NCBI GenBank assembly: GCA_944332395.1
Contig: CALVJV010000065.1
Location: 1-32,583, forward strand
Reading direction: 5' to 3'
DNA: 32,583 bases
Source of the DNA: an uncultured Clostridia bacterium
GTDB lineage: Bacteria; Bacillota; Clostridia; Christensenellales; UBA1242
Numbering within the stretch: the first letter of the stretch is position 1; every line of letters begins with the position of its first letter. Shown here piece by piece: positions 1,601 through 16,036 of the stretch. Under the pieces are notes generated by a model. That model was given only the letters and a program-made list of their open reading frames with translations, made no database searches and was not told the origin of the DNA. The translations under genes and the position numbers were made by a program.

Positions 1601-3406
1601 TTAATTCTCTTTAATTATTAAATTTCTAAATTCACTTATAATAGCATCGCCTTCTTGAGATTTTAACAAATCAAAAATTTCTATTTCATAACTAAAATTT
1701 TTATCTAATCTTAATATTTGTTCTATCTCAATTATTATACCTTTACAATCTAAAAATCTCAGATACTGATTATAATTGTTATTTTTAGTAATTTGTTGAT
1801 GTAATTTTATAAATTTATTGTAAATTTCTTCAATTTGCTCGTTTGTCATTTTTTCATTATTATACAATTCTTTAAGATCTTGTAAATTATTTAAGCAATT
1901 AATCTTGCCCCTGTAATTAAACTTATCTCTCAATTCAAAAGCGGTATAATGGGTCGCAAATTTTTCTTTATTATTAATAAAAATTTCAGTAACTTTTTCC
2001 ATAATGCTATTAAACATATTAAATCTATCTTCTTCTGATTTAAAATGTTTATTTATTACTAATTTAATAAATTGTTCGCAACATAAAAAGTTTTCTATTT
2101 CATGAAATGGGATGTGATAAATATTATCTTTTTCTAGTTCTGTTAGCCATATTTCATCTTTATAGTCACAATCTATTATCCCATAGGCTATATTGGGTAA
2201 ATGTAGATTCTTGTAAGCTTTAGTTAAATTGCACACCTTATCACAACCAGACACTGAAACTATTTTGTATTCTGGAAATAAAATTCTAAAGAGCTTAGCA
2301 TCATACTTTGAATCATCATGTGACTCACAAAATAAGACTGGAGCTCGATTGCCAACTAATTCAATAAGTAGTTTTTGTGGCAATTCATCACTCTCTTCTA
2401 GCTCTTTCCATCTCCATTTTTCCCCATCATATTGTTCAATCCAATAAACTCTAGAATTAATACGTGATGCGACAAAATTGCTATCATGTGTCAAATATAC
2501 AAAAATGGAATTGGGTCTATTTCTTTCTATAAAATTCCAAAGAAGAGAGACAATAGCAGGATTAAGATTATTTTCTGGTTCATCAATAAAGTAGTAATCT
2601 TTTTCATCTAAAAGAAGAACTCCTATCAAAAAAAACAATATGGATTTTTCGCCACTGCTTAAGTACTTTAAGGGATATGTTTTTCCTGTCTTTGTTTTTA
2701 CATTTAAACCATGCTCAAAAAATAATTCTCTATCTTTTACTAAAAAGCCCCATTCATTTATTATCTTTTGAGTAATTCCGTTTTCAACATGCTTCTCATT
2801 TTCTTCATTTCTCTCTCTTTCAAGTAAATTTATATAATAATCAAATTGGTTTTGAATATAATTTCCTTGAAAATCCTCATCAACATTTGTTGCACGTGAA
2901 TAGTTGTTTTGCATATCTTTTATAAATTCTTCATATGCTCTTTTGGGATTAAAGTTTCTACTGACAAGTAAAACTCTATCTGCCTGAAAATATTGAACTT
3001 TTGCACTAGCGGTATCTTTCTGAAGTTTTCTTAACAATGTTGTTTTACCACATCCGTTTGGACCAACAAAAACCACATTTCTTTTTTCTTCTGAAAGAAA
3101 ATCAAGATAATCGATAGATTCAAACTTATTTATATATTGATTAAGTGCTTGAATTATTATATCTGCTTCATTTGTTACAATTCTGTTTACATAATAAATT
3201 GAATTACCATTTACGTCATCTTTTTCTATAATGGGGAAGGAATCAAGAATTGATTTAACAGTTGATTGATATTTTGCAGTACAACGTTCAAACTTTAAAT
3301 TAACCTTATTATAAAATTTCTGTATGCAATCAATAAGTTCTTTAACTTCACTAATTTTATTTAATTTGCCAGTTTTTATTTTTTCAAATTCAGCATTTGT
3401 ATACAT
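1601..3406 (-). CDS. Fused ABC-type ATPase and DUF4435 (TOPRIM-like) defence protein
   Basis: A 601-residue protein in two parts. The N-terminal ATPase has Walker A GPNGCGKTT (about 115-123), an ABC signature LSSGEKS (249-255), Walker B YYFIDEPE (271-278) and an H-loop histidine (about 307). After about 350 comes a DUF4435-type segment: E361 in LFCESHDD, an acidic pair in IIDCD (about 411-414) and the HEIENFL motif (about 435-441), a TOPRIM-like set of acidic residues. ATPase plus DUF4435 is the arrangement of PARIS-type (AriA-AriB) anti-phage systems and resembles OLD nucleases. In those families the ATPase senses a phage trigger and the nuclease part causes cell arrest. The role here is inferred from this and from the restriction-modification neighbours. 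GGAG precedes the ATG at good spacing. A 140-base gap separates it from the endonuclease gene, so it may have its own promoter (a TGCTATAAG extended -10 lies near 3443-3451). Confidence 0.75.
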   Translation of the reverse strand: MYTNAEFEKIKTGKLNKISEVKELIDCIQKFYNKVNLKFERCTAKYQSTVKSILDSFPIIEKDDVNGNSIYYVNRIVTNEADIIIQALNQYINKFESIDYLDFLSEEKRNVVFVGPNGCGKTTLLRKLQKDTASAKVQYFQADRVLLVSRNFNPKRAYEEFIKDMQNNYSRATNVDEDFQGNYIQNQFDYYINLLERERNEENEKHVENGITQKIINEWGFLVKDRELFFEHGLNVKTKTGKTYPLKYLSSGEKSILFFLIGVLLLDEKDYYFIDEPENNLNPAIVSLLWNFIERNRPNSIFVYLTHDSNFVASRINSRVYWIEQYDGEKWRWKELEESDELPQKLLIELVGNRAPVLFCESHDDSKYDAKLFRILFPEYKIVSVSGCDKVCNLTKAYKNLHLPNIAYGIIDCDYKDEIWLTELEKDNIYHIPFHEIENFLCCEQFIKLVINKHFKSEEDRFNMFNSIMEKVTEIFINNKEKFATHYTAFELRDKFNYRGKINCLNNLQDLKELYNNEKMTNEQIEEIYNKFIKLHQQITKNNNYNQYLRFLDCKGIIIEIEQILRLDKNFSYEIEIFDLLKSQEGDAIISEFRNLIIKEN

Positions 3407-3546: not shown

Positions 3547-4293
3547 TTAAAAATTATCAAATCCTTCATAGGTTTTAAATGCCAATAAATACAAAGATTT
3601 TAGAAGATTTTTATCCTTTTGTTTAAGTTCTTGGAATACAGTATCTTTTTCTCTTTTATTTGCTATTGTTTTGTTTACAATTTTCGTTATAATTTCAGGC
3701 AAAACTTTACATAGTTTAGCAAATGCATCTTTTTCCCCAGTAACTATTTCATAGAATTTATCAATAGATATTCTTCTAATTCTTTCATTCTCAACTTTTT
3801 GTCCATTCATCGTTCTTTGCCATTTTATATTTTGACTACTTTTAGCAATGACCTCAACTAAAGCACAAATGCAATCCGATTCTTTTAATGCTTGATTTTG
3901 CAAGTTGATATAAACACTATCAGCACCACCTTTATTCATTGTATTATGTTTATTTTTTAATTCTACATAATATTTTTGAGTTCCATCATTAAAAACGATA
4001 TCAAAACCTTTTTGTGGAACTTCACAGTTCCTTATATATTTGAATATTTTTTGATGGAAATAACCAATAGCATTTGTATTGCTTTTATCTCTTTGTCTAG
4101 CGATTTCTTCATTTAGAATTGTTTTTATTTTCTTATTATAAACAATAGAGTCGAATGTTAATTTTATTGGATCAATAATATTTTCGTTAAATCTTTCTAG
4201 ATTGATGCCTTTAAGAGTTTCTCTATACTCATCCAAAGTTTCCTTAATATGATTTTCCAAATCATTATCACTAATAAAATTCAAATATGCCAT
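3547..4293 (-). CDS. Type II restriction endonuclease, Eco47II family
   Basis: A 248-residue protein that I recognise as the Eco47II family (Pfam RE_Eco47II). It starts MAYLNFISD and has the family's DP (41-42), EEIARQRDK (about 62-70) and NAIGYFHQKI (about 74-83) blocks. Catalytic residues fit a PD-(D/E)xK nuclease: D98 in GFDIVF and E111-L-K113 in the ELKNKHNT motif. The C-terminus has the FYEIVTGEKDAF block. Family members cut at GGNCC; that specificity is inferred from homology only. The ATG begins one base after the methyltransferase stop (TAA-ATG), with GGAG upstream, so the two are translationally coupled. Making the methyltransferase first fits protection before cleavage. Confidence 0.9.
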   Translation of the reverse strand: MAYLNFISDNDLENHIKETLDEYRETLKGINLERFNENIIDPIKLTFDSIVYNKKIKTILNEEIARQRDKSNTNAIGYFHQKIFKYIRNCEVPQKGFDIVFNDGTQKYYVELKNKHNTMNKGGADSVYINLQNQALKESDCICALVEVIAKSSQNIKWQRTMNGQKVENERIRRISIDKFYEIVTGEKDAFAKLCKVLPEIITKIVNKTIANKREKDTVFQELKQKDKNLLKSLYLLAFKTYEGFDNF

Positions 4294-5502
4294 TTATTTT
4301 ATCTCCTTTAGTACTTTTATAATTGATAAACCAATTTCTTTTGCTAAATTAACAGGTACTGCATTTCCAATCTGTTTATATTTACTATTTAAACTGCCAG
4401 TAAATTGCCATGAGTCAGGGAATGATTGTATTCTAGCACTTTCTCTTATAGTAAAAGGTCTTGTTTCATCTGGATGACATCTATCTGTTTGTTTCATACA
4501 AGGAGAACACAAAATTGTTAAACTTGGTTCATCCCATGAAATTCTTCTAGCCATTCCCGTTTTACCACCACCAAGATTATAAGATCCTTTCATATATGCT
4601 CTTGCAACATCTTCAGGTAAATCTCTCCAACATCCACCTGGGGGAACTAAATCAAACACTTCTTTTTTGCTTTGTGGATATTTTGCACCTTCTGATTTTG
4701 GAACATTTTTTAAAGCATCTCTCAAAACAGGTTTGTATTCATAAGGTGTAGGATATTCGAATTCAACTGGAATATCATTTCTAATGCCAACTATAACTAT
4801 TCTTTCTCGTTTTTCTGCAACTCCATAATCCCAAGCATTTAATACTTTATATTGAACACGATAACCGATTTCTTCGAAAACATTTATCATAGTTTGTAAT
4901 GTTTTTCCACCATCATGACTAACAAGACCTTTAACATTTTCAGCCAAAAACATTTTTGGTTTTAATTGTTTTAGTATTTTTGCATAATAATAAAACATTG
5001 TACCCCTTACATCATTTAGTCCTAATCTTTTACCTGCATAGCTAAATGATTGACAAGGATATCCGCCAGACAATAGATCCAATTCGCCTTCTTTAATATT
5101 TAACATTTTCAATAAATCTTGTTCTGCTAAATTTTCAACAGAGTCGCAAATTACATTCCAATCTGGCCTATTAGTTTTAAGTGTATTACAAGAATCTTTA
5201 TCAAAATCATTTGACAATAAGTTGCTAAAACCTGCTTGTTCTAATCCAAGAGCTAGACCACCAGCACCTGCAAATAATTCAACATGTGTAAAAGTATTTT
5301 TATGGGTATCAACATTAAGAAGTTTATTTGCGTCAATACTAAAATTTATAACAATCGAACGAAGATTCTCATAGTTTGGTTTTGATTTTCCAGACAACCA
5401 ATCACTAACTTGAGCTTGCGTTGCATTTATACTTTTTGCAAAACTTGTTTGGTTTAATCCGTTGTCATGTATAGTCTTTTGTAGTAGCTGTGCTAATTCC
5501 AT
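4294..5502 (-). CDS. DNA (cytosine-5) methyltransferase with N-terminal HTH domain
   Basis: A 402-residue 5-methylcytosine methyltransferase. Residues 1-60 form an Xre-type helix-turn-helix (NQTSFAKSINATQAQVSDWL). Then come motif I FAGAGG (77-82), motif IV GGYPCQS with catalytic C150, motif VI ENV (188-190), motif VIII EKRERI (about 230-234) and motif X GNAVP near the C-terminus. The target recognition region holds GGGKTGMARRISWDEPS and SPCMKQTDRCHP, like methyltransferases paired with Eco47II/Sau96I-type enzymes, so GGNCC is the likely target (inferred). In M.SsoII/M.EcoRII-type enzymes an N-terminal HTH represses transcription of the system; a similar role is plausible. GGGGTG precedes the ATG. 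A TGC-TATAAT extended -10 lies about 29 bases upstream of the start. Confidence 0.93.
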   Translation of the reverse strand: MELAQLLQKTIHDNGLNQTSFAKSINATQAQVSDWLSGKSKPNYENLRSIVINFSIDANKLLNVDTHKNTFTHVELFAGAGGLALGLEQAGFSNLLSNDFDKDSCNTLKTNRPDWNVICDSVENLAEQDLLKMLNIKEGELDLLSGGYPCQSFSYAGKRLGLNDVRGTMFYYYAKILKQLKPKMFLAENVKGLVSHDGGKTLQTMINVFEEIGYRVQYKVLNAWDYGVAEKRERIVIVGIRNDIPVEFEYPTPYEYKPVLRDALKNVPKSEGAKYPQSKKEVFDLVPPGGCWRDLPEDVARAYMKGSYNLGGGKTGMARRISWDEPSLTILCSPCMKQTDRCHPDETRPFTIRESARIQSFPDSWQFTGSLNSKYKQIGNAVPVNLAKEIGLSIIKVLKEIK

Positions 5503-6550: not shown

Positions 6551-6585
6551 ATAAAAAATATGCAAAGAATAAATCTCTGCATATT
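6551..6585 (-). terminator. Terminator downstream of spoVM
   Basis: AATATGCA (6557-6564) pairs with TGCATATT (6578-6585), extended inward by AGA/TCT after one mismatch. On the minus strand it is followed by a T-rich run (6558-6551). It lies 37 bases past the spoVM stop and isolates that gene from the HEPN-like gene. Confidence 0.6.
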
Positions 6586-6621: not shown

Positions 6622-6690
6622 CTATTTTTTTATGAAGAGTTTTAAAAAACCTCGTAAAAATTTGGGCGCTTTTATTGCCATAATTGTCAT
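6622..6690 (-). CDS. spoVM: Stage V sporulation protein M (SpoVM), 22 residues
   Basis: A 22-codon gene reading MTIMAIKAPKFLRGFLKLFI plus two lysines. It matches the core of Bacillus subtilis SpoVM (IKLPKFLGG): isoleucine, lysine, proline, PKFL and the following glycine fall in register. SpoVM is an amphipathic helix that senses membrane curvature, sits on the forespore outer membrane and anchors the coat ATPase SpoIVA; that is family knowledge. GGAGG (6702-6698) lies 7 bases before the ATG, an excellent Shine-Dalgarno; an internal ATG at codon 4 is less well placed. A CATATTAT box upstream (minus strand, about 6727-6720) loosely resembles a sigma-E -10. The gene has its own terminator and diverges from pcrA. 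Its presence argues for a spore-former. The peptide is short, so chance similarity is not wholly excluded. Confidence 0.8.
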   Translation of the reverse strand: MTIMAIKAPKFLRGFLKLFIKK

Positions 6691-6773
6691 CACATATCCT
6701 CCATTTTAGTTTACTTTATAATATGCCAAACAAAAAAAATTTGTGATAGCAATAAAAAATTATACCAAGTATT

Positions 6774-6808: not shown

Positions 6809-9040
6809 ATGAACAATATAGTTGAAGAAGCATTAAATAATAACGATTTAATTTTGGACGAATTAAATAAAGAACAAAAACTGCCAGCTTTGACAACAGA
6901 AGGCCCTGTTTTGGTTAGCGCTGGGGCAGGCAGTGGCAAAACCAGGCTGTTAACACATAGAATTGCTTATTTAGTTAAGGGGAAGTTTATTAATCCAAGA
7001 AATATATTAGCCATTACATTTACAAATAAAGCCGCCAAAGAGATGCGAGAAAGACTTGCTAAAATGATTGATACAACAGAAATGCAAATTTCTACTTTTC
7101 ATTCATTATGTGCAAAACTATTAAGAAGACATGCTCCAATAATTGGGTTTTCACAAAATTTCTCTATTTACGGAGATGAAGAAAAGTCAAGATTGGTGAA
7201 ACGAATCATTGATGATAACACATTAAACTTGACTGTAAATAATGTGTGTTGGCATATTTCTGAATGCAAGAGCAAGTTGCTTGACGCACAAAACTATTAT
7301 AAGGCAATAATGTCAAACAAAGATGCTTTAGATATTTGTAAGGTAATTGAGGTTTATTGCTATGAATGTCAAAAAAATAATGCAATGGATTTTGATGATT
7401 TGATTGTAAATTGTGTTAAACTTTTAGAAATTGACAAAGAAGTCCGAAGTTTTTACCAAAATTTATATAAATACATTTTAGTTGATGAGTTTCAAGATAC
7501 TAATTATTCTCAATATAAATTAATCAAGGTATTATCAGAAATGCATCACAATATTTTTGTTGTCGGAGATGAAGATCAATGCATATATACCTGGCGTGGG
7601 GCAGAGGTAATTAATATGTCAAATTTTGTTAAAGACTTTCCAGAAACAAAAGTCTTTAAACTTGAACAAAATTATAGAAGCACAAAAAATATATTGCGAC
7701 CGGCAAATAAACTGATTGATAGCAATAAAAATAGGTTTAAAAAAGTGCTTTGGACAGATAATGAAGATGGCCCAGAAACTGAAGAAATTGTAGCTTATTC
7801 AGATTTAGAAGAAGCAGAATTTGTAGCAAGTACCATAAAATCAAAAATTCAAAGTGGTGAGTATAATCCAAAAGATTTTGCTATATTAATGCGTGTAAAT
7901 GCGTTATCTCGTATTTATGAAGAGAAATTGCTCGCCTATGGAATAGCACATCAAGTATATGGTGGGTTCAAATTTTATGAAAGAAAAGAAATTAAAGACA
8001 CATTAAGTTATTTAAAAGTCTTGGTTAACGATAAAGACAATGATGCGTTCATAAGGCTGTTGGGTTTTCCAAAAAAAGGCATAGGAGAAAAATCGGTTAA
8101 AGATTTGTATTTAATTGCTCACTCTAAAAATGTTTCGATGTGTGAGTATGTTATGAACTTAAAACCATCTGATTCGCTATATAAAAAATTTGTTATAGTT
8201 AAAGACCAAATTGCAAAATTAAAAGAGGATCTAAAGAGTATGCAACTTGGTGATTTTGTCGATTATTTGGTTAAGATGATTGGTATTAAAGAAGCAATAG
8301 GAAACAAGACCGAAGAAGATCAAACAAGGCAAATGAATATTGATGATTTGGTTAGATCAATAAGACAATTTTCTGAAACAAATCCAGATATGAACATTAC
8401 TGATTATCTAGAAAGCGTTACGTTGCTTCGCGATATTGACGAGCTTGAAGACGTTAATAACACAGTAACGATAACCACGGTTCATTCGGCAAAAGGCCTT
8501 GAATTTCCGGTGGTGTTTGTTGTTGGGCTGGTTGAGGGGCTATTTCCATTATCAAGAGCAATAAATAGTGATAATCCTGATGATTTAGAAGAAGAAAGGC
8601 GTTTGATGTATGTTGCTATAACAAGAGCAAAAAACCAATTATACTTGACAAGGAGCAGAACAAAATTTGTTTATGAAACTAGGCGCACAGAGGTAGTTCG
8701 TTGTTCAAGATTTTTAAAAGAAATGAGCGGAACATATAAAGCTCAAAACTTTGAATTTGATAATCTAGTTACAAGATATAGTCCAAACACATACAAAGTT
8801 GAAACAACAGGAGAAAAATATTTTAGCGAAAACAAACCAGAAAAAATAGAAGAAAAAAAAGTAAATAATGAATTAATTGCATCTTTTCAAAAAGGTGATA
8901 GGGTTTTTCACACGCACTTTGGCGAAGGTGTTGTAACAATTCCTGTTACTGATTTTTCAACAGCTTTTATTACAGTCAAGTTTGATAAAGTTGGAATTAA
9001 AACATTATCTTTAAGATTTGCACCATTAAAAAAAATATAA
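6809..9040 (+). CDS. pcrA: ATP-dependent DNA helicase PcrA/UvrD
   Basis: A 743-residue superfamily 1A 3'-5' helicase, typical PcrA length. Walker A GAGSGKT is at about 39-45, ITFTNKAAKEM (motif Ia) follows, DEFQDTN is motif II, GDEDQCIYTWRGA motif III, QNYRST motif IV, TTVHSAKGLEFPVVF motif V, and EERRLMYVAITRAK motif VI. The C-terminus has the Tudor-like KGDRVFHTHFGEGVV segment that binds RNA polymerase in PcrA. It unwinds DNA in repair and removes proteins from DNA. ligA follows 10 bases later, the usual clostridial pairing. The ATG at 6809 is the only ATG before Walker A and has no Shine-Dalgarno; with the -10 ending at 6801 the message is probably leaderless. Confidence 0.97.
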   Translation: MNNIVEEALNNNDLILDELNKEQKLPALTTEGPVLVSAGAGSGKTRLLTHRIAYLVKGKFINPRNILAITFTNKAAKEMRERLAKMIDTTEMQISTFHSLCAKLLRRHAPIIGFSQNFSIYGDEEKSRLVKRIIDDNTLNLTVNNVCWHISECKSKLLDAQNYYKAIMSNKDALDICKVIEVYCYECQKNNAMDFDDLIVNCVKLLEIDKEVRSFYQNLYKYILVDEFQDTNYSQYKLIKVLSEMHHNIFVVGDEDQCIYTWRGAEVINMSNFVKDFPETKVFKLEQNYRSTKNILRPANKLIDSNKNRFKKVLWTDNEDGPETEEIVAYSDLEEAEFVASTIKSKIQSGEYNPKDFAILMRVNALSRIYEEKLLAYGIAHQVYGGFKFYERKEIKDTLSYLKVLVNDKDNDAFIRLLGFPKKGIGEKSVKDLYLIAHSKNVSMCEYVMNLKPSDSLYKKFVIVKDQIAKLKEDLKSMQLGDFVDYLVKMIGIKEAIGNKTEEDQTRQMNIDDLVRSIRQFSETNPDMNITDYLESVTLLRDIDELEDVNNTVTITTVHSAKGLEFPVVFVVGLVEGLFPLSRAINSDNPDDLEEERRLMYVAITRAKNQLYLTRSRTKFVYETRRTEVVRCSRFLKEMSGTYKAQNFEFDNLVTRYSPNTYKVETTGEKYFSENKPEKIEEKKVNNELIASFQKGDRVFHTHFGEGVVTIPVTDFSTAFITVKFDKVGIKTLSLRFAPLKKI

Positions 9041-15362: not shown

Positions 15363-15548
15363 ATGAGTAAAGTATGTAGTGTATGCGGAAAAGGCCATAT
15401 GAAAGGTCATACAATTTCACATTCACATATTCTAACAAATAGAGCATTTAAACCAAATTTGCATAAAGTTAAGGTTGAAAACGATGGAAAAACAGAGTAT
15501 GTATATATGTGTACAAAGTGTATGAAAGGCTCAAAAAAGGATAAATAA
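15363..15548 (+). CDS. rpmB: 50S ribosomal protein bL28 (zinc-ribbon form)
   Basis: A 61-residue bL28 with the family core HTISHSHILTNRAFKPNLHK. Two CxxC pairs (C5-C8 and C50-C53) mark the zinc-binding form; paralogues lacking them are used under zinc shortage in some bacteria. GGGAGGAAAGG precedes the ATG. A strong terminator follows at once, so rpsU-rpmB form a two-gene unit. Confidence 0.95.
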   Translation: MSKVCSVCGKGHMKGHTISHSHILTNRAFKPNLHKVKVENDGKTEYVYMCTKCMKGSKKDK

Positions 15549-15554
15549 ATGAAC

Positions 15555-15585
15555 AATGCACACCATAAGTAGTGTGCATTTTTTT
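15555..15585 (+). terminator. Terminator of rpsU-rpmB
   Basis: AATGCACAC (15555-15563) pairs with GTGTGCATT (15572-15580) around an 8-base loop, followed by seven T. Confidence 0.9.
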
Positions 15586-15622
15586 GTTTTATTTTATAAA
15601 GCTATAAATTTATATAAAATAC

Positions 15623-15651
15623 TTGCTAAAATTTAGAAAAAATAGTAAAAT
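15623..15651 (+). promoter_or_regulatory. Promoter of the asp23-like/fakA/recG unit
   Basis: TTGCTA (15623-15628), 17-base spacer, TAAAAT (15646-15651). The ATG follows 35 bases later with GGGTGA upstream. Confidence 0.7.
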
Positions 15652-15685
15652 ACAAGATAATAATTAAACATTATTGGGTGAATAA

Positions 15686-16036
15686 ATGTCATTAAATACA
15701 GTAAATGCATACGGTAAGATAACTGTAACAGACGAAGCGATAGCATTAGTAGCAGGTCATAGCACATTAGAGTGTTATGGCGTTGTTGATTTGGTAGCAC
15801 GCAAAGCAAAAGATGTTGCAGGTGAGTTGTTTAATAGGCCAAGCAAAACTAGAGGAGTCCGTGTTTTAACAATTGGAGATAGAATTCATATTGATATTGA
15901 TTTGTTGCTTAAATACGGAGTCTCAATAAATGCGGTTGCGGAGTCTGTAAGACGACAAGTTAAATATAATGTAGAAAAGTTTACTGGAATGATTGTTGAT
16001 GCAATAAATATAAACGTAGCAGGAGTACGAGTTTAA
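15686..16036 (+). CDS. Asp23/Gls24 family envelope stress protein (YloU-like)
   Basis: A 116-residue Asp23/Gls24 protein. GKITVTDEAIALVAGHSTLE, CYGVVDLV and YGVSINAVAESVRRQVKYNV are family blocks. These are cytoplasmic, membrane-associated proteins linked to envelope homeostasis. The gene sits directly before fakA, the usual yloU-yloV order of Bacillota. Confidence 0.92.
   Translation: MSLNTVNAYGKITVTDEAIALVAGHSTLECYGVVDLVARKAKDVAGELFNRPSKTRGVRVLTIGDRIHIDIDLLLKYGVSINAVAESVRRQVKYNVEKFTGMIVDAININVAGVRV

Follow-up and report, generated by a model that had tools for sequence, protein, structure and literature searches.

SpoVM (stage V sporulation protein M) is the peptide by which the surface of a developing spore is labelled for its protein coat. 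Pro9 is the only residue fully conserved in the literature alignment of SpoVM sequences, and Ile6 is required for SpoIVA binding (Ribis et al. 2017, PMC5607322). The substitutions K2A and I15A are harmful in the B. subtilis peptide, which is 26 residues long; the B. subtilis gene requires sigma-E and SpoIIID, and that of C. difficile is sigma-E dependent, shares a transcript with CD25622 near rpmB and can largely be dispensed with (PMC5607322). In other spore-formers, too, spoVM is as a rule found close to rpmB (PMC5607322). The gene also tops the table of sporulation genes missed in annotation, with 70 newly identified copies (Galperin et al. 2012, PMC3533761).

The locus described here was found in a 32,583-nt stretch of DNA (the window) from an uncultured Clostridia bacterium. 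Like B. subtilis spoVM, it is a separate short gene in a genome that also encodes the partner SpoIVA; unlike it, it encodes 22 residues, with Thr2 and Phe15 at the two sites where the harmful substitutions fall, does not adjoin rpmB, and is preceded by a -35 element of AC type, compared with the sigma-E plus SpoIIID control of the B. subtilis gene. With C. difficile it shares a clostridial SpoVM with a SpoIVA partner, but it differs in being monocistronic, in lying by pcrA and in its sigma-K-like -35 element. The closest orthologues, those of its own family, have Lys7, Pro9, the overall pattern and the promoter architecture in common with the target; they mostly carry Cys5 and lie in the order rsgA-rpe-spoVM-rpmB-asp23, whereas the target has Ala5 and lies beside pcrA.

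The elements of the locus are reported in Table 1. The first-pass annotation had placed a 22-codon spoVM at this position leaving the strand unstated; its coordinates are exact, and the gene is read from the minus strand, the plus strand of the same interval containing stops. The good Shine-Dalgarno sequence and the terminator of its own, both described there, were likewise recovered. The terminator is the sole terminator-like site in the region (1 found, compared with 0.1 expected in shuffles); the stretch 3' of the gene folds at z = -4.25, a value bettered by just 1 of 200 shuffles, and a weaker GGGT hairpin immediately follows the stop codon. The gene, which is monocistronic, runs divergently from pcrA. 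It had also been judged to fall below gene-calling limits: this 22-aa gene is indeed unannotated, and missed spoVM genes are a documented annotation gap.

Table 1. Sequence features of the spoVM locus and other features of the window (positions are those of the window).
Feature	Position	Strand	Basis
spoVM coding sequence, 22 codons plus stop, MTIMAIKAPKFLRGFLKLFIKK then stop	6622..6690	-	read directly; profile matches
Possible alternative start, in-frame GTG immediately 5' of ATG	6693..6691	-	
Shine-Dalgarno GGAGGA, 6 nt 5' of ATG	6702..6697	-	read directly
Intrinsic terminator, 12-bp stem, loop of 5, T-rich tail	6585..6557	-	
Predicted mother-cell -10 GCATATTAT, then A (full CATANNNTA)	6718..6726	-	promoter model
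Predicted -35 TCACAAA, AC type (sigma-K-like), 13 nt from the -10 9-mer	6740..6746	-	promoter model
pcrA	6809-9040		
rpmB	15363-15548		
rpmB and asp23, co-directional	15363-16036		
Defence-type island: Eco47II-type restriction enzyme and C5-cytosine methylase with N-terminal helix-turn-helix (the pair at 3547-5502), near an AAA_21 + DUF4435 ATPase	3547-5502; 1601-3406	-	
ORF of 213 aa	419-1060	-	
ORF of 303 aa	5577-6488	-	

The identity of the peptide was evaluated by profile searches. The NCBIfam model SpoVM_broad (NF033436) gave 17 bits (E 0.0044) against a cut-off of 31 bits, while no Pfam model matched the peptide and a PDB search with it returned no match. The SpoVM_broad cut-off, however, was reached in none of the 40 related genomes searched, those with copies at the classical locus included, weak matches being found in many; it is therefore too strict for this group, an annotation threshold and no biological feature. 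With a profile built from 18 aligned orthologues, the target being left out, the target was the only match in its 880-kb genome (E = 1.1e-6, 29.5 bits) and the only significant one over the window and 68 pcrA loci (E = 1.4e-6). The same profile found matches at E <= 1 in 55 of 59 family genomes, mostly stronger than that of the target.

Cys5, Lys7 and Pro9 are invariant in the alignment of the 18 orthologues; the target keeps Ile6, Lys7 and Pro9, and has Ala5 where all 18 have Cys5. Comparison with clostridial SpoVM sequences, proposed as a check in the first-pass annotation, gave 18 identical residues out of 22 for relatives G047 and G053 (4 differ) and 15 out of 22 for G021 (7 differ). Against the B. 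subtilis peptide, 8 of 22 positions are identical in a gapless alignment (M1, I6, K7, P9, K10, F11, L12 and G14); position 5, Thr in B. subtilis, is Ala in the target and Cys in the family. The gapless pattern, Pro9 included, thus occurs in a peptide within the expected size of about 20-40 aa, small, hydrophobic and of net charge +6. Its hydrophobic moment fits an amphipathic helix, but is not significant taken alone (shuffle fraction 0.086). No second spoVM was found near rpmB or rpe in the genome, which is 90% complete. Judged by its sequence, the ORF is a genuine, ordinary SpoVM, one more of known type; what adds interest is its relocation, along with the sigma-K control predicted for it. 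Standard models miss spoVM throughout a family of bacteria that have genomes of roughly a megabase and appear competent to sporulate, and calls of spoVM absence there are consequently unreliable.

The genome holding the window (G000) amounts to 880 kb in 66 contigs, and its relatives are genomes of 0.6-1.4 Mb recorded as uncultured Clostridia or Christensenella. This reduced-genome family is probably UBA1242 of the GTDB Christensenellales; for UBA1242, genomes below 1 Mb have been described, and the sporulation genes called 'quite unexpected', in an article whose text makes no mention of SpoVM (Begmatov et al. 2025, PMC12306168). The organism had been proposed as a likely spore-former, a view that a lack of spoIVA and other core sporulation genes would contradict. 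These genes are present: SpoIVA scored 642 bits (cut-off 459.9), and an inventory covering a sample of sporulation genes showed that Spo0A, SigF, SigE, SigG and SigK are encoded, together with SpoIIAA, SpoIIAB, SpoIIGA, SpoIIIAA and SpoVAC. On the other side, a search of this genome and 24 relatives for alpha/beta SASP genes (PF00269) returned none, while a B. subtilis control was matched, and for this reason sporulation is put forward as a genomic prediction only. The 25 genomes without a detected alpha/beta SASP belong to a family that keeps the sigma cascade and SpoIVA, which suggests either divergent DNA-protecting proteins or another kind of spore. No SpoIIID (TIGR02844) was detected in 14 of 39 genomes from the family, near-complete ones among them, and specifically in G000, G021, G010, G047, G051 and G053; the mother-cell cascade of the family may run without it. 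A second, short protein similar to the C-terminal part of Spo0A is encoded elsewhere in the target genome (L109, G000:C42:2177-2485; a 137-aa open frame, 63 bits); it has no receiver domain and lies near parA/parB- and dnaN-like genes.

A sigma-E promoter had been suggested for the gene. The upstream regions of 30 spoVM genes of the family, with the target left out, were fitted with a two-block model, which took the form [TG][AC]AC[AC]AA - 13 - [TG]CATATAAT, with a total score of 450 compared with 250 +/- 14 on shuffled sets; refitting led to the same TAACAAA motif from two of three starting points, and to a shifted TTTAACA from the third. The target promoter, TCACAAA - 13 - GCATATTAT, located 27 nt before the ATG, scores 20.2 bits, above all 30 training promoters, and none of 1000 shuffles reaches this score. 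Upstream regions of spoIVA in the same family show instead TCATAAA - 13 - TCATATATT, of the sigma-E ATA type. When regions were anchored on the -10 alone and the -35 was read off without fitting, the discriminating base was distributed C:T = 25:1 over the 30 spoVM loci, the target among them, and 1:27 over the spoIVA loci, with P = 6e-13, a value which treats related genomes as independent, although the genomes span about 30 genera and their spacer sequences differ.

In C. difficile, as in B. subtilis, a -35 of ATA type corresponds to sigma-E and one of AC type to sigma-K, and a -10 identical to that of the target, CATATTAT, has been reported for a mother-cell promoter (2013, PMC3789822). Optimal gaps between -35 and -10 are 12 and 15 nt, and the -35 is discriminated by a Gln in the case of SigE and by an Arg in that of SigK (Eichenberger et al. 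2004, PMC517825); the corresponding segments of the target genome read ISQSYISR (Gln) in SigE and ISRSYVSR (Arg) in SigK. Spaced as TCACA - 15 nt - GCATATTATA, the target site combines the AC-type -35, the gap of about 15 nt and the CATANNNTA -10 looked for in a sigma-K promoter. The AC model is also matched, at p <= 0.035, by 6 of 17 spoVM upstream regions taken from beyond the family (a single genus contributing two of the six), and such a -35 is probably not confined to this family. A hand-weighted sigma-E consensus was also tried and proved too blunt in AT-rich DNA (target z 0.4, not significant, the family being significant overall); spoIIIAA upstream regions, taken as a sigma-E control, were discarded, as what the fits picked up was not promoter sequence but apparently the end of the coding region of a preceding gene. 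The predicted spoVM promoter is thus of the mother-cell (sigma-E/sigma-K) class: this part of the original suggestion stands, but the -35 is sigma-K-like and not sigma-E-like.

The AC-type -35 would lead to transcription by sigma-K, or by sigma-K plus sigma-E, and not by sigma-E alone. A plausible but less likely alternative is an ordinary sigma-E promoter, in which ACAA would be a SpoIIID-assisted or a relaxed sigma-E element. The dependence of B. subtilis spoVM on SpoIIID and of C. difficile spoVM on sigma-E (PMC5607322) favours this possibility and calls for caution about the predicted sigma-K control, and the -10 elements recognized by the two factors are almost identical. All six genomes listed above as having no detectable SpoIIID, however, carry the AC-type -35, so that a SpoIIID site would not be the simplest explanation of ACAA and such a box is disfavoured as its source; moreover, the spoIVA promoters of the same family show a plain ATA -35.

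Transcription involving sigma-K has implications for timing. By analogy with B. subtilis, the short, cationic peptide would lie along the outer forespore membrane, which is positively curved, on its mother-cell face, and would help SpoIVA to encase the forespore, thereby founding the coat; Pro9 would bend the chain, and the peptide, placed in the convex outer membrane, would hold SpoIVA there (PMC5607322). The sequence shows the ORF, its homology, its signals, the relocation and the class of the promoter, whereas expression timing, protein function and sporulation itself are inferred. If made under sigma-K, SpoVM would arrive later than SpoIVA and act as a stabiliser. We consider it an even question whether, in this family and in several other clostridial ones, spoVM is expressed late, under sigma-K, and spoIVA early, under sigma-E. 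Were this the case, SpoIVA would have to arrive at the forespore and encase it at a time when SpoVM is not yet made, and SpoVM would be a late coat stabiliser, unlike the B. subtilis peptide, which serves as an initial landmark. The contrast, seen across the family, between early-type promoters of spoIVA and late-type ones of spoVM also offers a testable reason why in some Clostridia, as was found for C. difficile, encasement by SpoIVA could do without SpoVM.

The location beside pcrA and away from rpmB, pointed out in the first-pass annotation, was confirmed and is unusual. Of the 30 family loci, 25 have spoVM no more than 1.5 kb away from rsgA/rpe or rpmB/asp23, and rpmB is opposite in direction to asp23 in all 19 which show both. 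In G021, the nearest genome by pcrA, a single contig carries pcrA-ligA-gatCAB ... priA-def-fmt-rlmN-rsgA-rpe-spoVM-rpmB(antisense)-asp23. In the target genome, spoVM has pcrA on one side and, on the other, an island containing an Eco47II-type restriction-modification pair; it lies about 8.7 kb from rpmB, here co-directional with asp23, and the priA...rsgA-rpe segment is on a separate contig (C19), where a large serine recombinase starts 161 nt after rpe and is followed by a rolling-circle-type replication protein and by the contig end. None of the 30 orthologue loci has spoVM beside pcrA, and 68 other pcrA loci gave no significant match. The usual rpe/rpmB/asp23 neighbourhood, from which the target departs, does not define the gene: 5 of the 30 orthologue loci are also outside it, and position consequently says nothing about SpoVM membership. 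Several relatives (G016, G044, G051, G063 and G010) have likewise moved the gene away from there. The likely history is a rearrangement through mobile DNA, by which spoVM with its promoter would have shifted from the ancestral rpe-spoVM-rpmB-asp23 neighbourhood to the site upstream of pcrA.

The vicinity of the restriction-modification island, the very short length of the ORF and its unusual Ala5 might suggest a chance ORF, or a decaying, non-functional remnant of the rearrangement, but this is very improbable: the frame is intact, with promoter, Shine-Dalgarno sequence and terminator all in place, the profile match has E = 1.1e-6, the promoter outscores all others, and this is the sole spoVM copy found in a genome which retains spoIVA and the sigma cascade. 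Still more improbable is another small cationic amphipathic membrane peptide convergent on SpoVM, such as a type I toxin-antitoxin toxin, which would share the small size, hydrophobicity and +6 charge, but would explain neither the gapless, position-by-position match to the SpoVM pattern, nor relatives at 15 to 18 identities out of 22 that include G021 at the classical spoVM locus, nor a promoter of mother-cell type. We are therefore highly confident that the ORF is the spoVM of this genome, monocistronic, moved together with its promoter and predicted to be transcribed by sigma-K or by sigma-K plus sigma-E.

The target documents a spoVM moved as a self-contained unit, promoter and terminator included. 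At the contig edge beside it, the restriction-modification pair is near an AAA_21 and DUF4435 ATPase, in what appears to be a defence-type island, and neither of the ORFs next to this island (213 aa and 303 aa) matches any Pfam model. Directly 3' of rpe on contig C19, at the ancestral spoVM site, the serine recombinase and the rolling-circle REP (ORF2/G2P) occupy L112:6365-8930. Another rearrangement was observed in relatives G002 and G057 (loci L003, L118 and L124), where spoVM is inverted with respect to rpe and asp23 within an unchanged neighbourhood.
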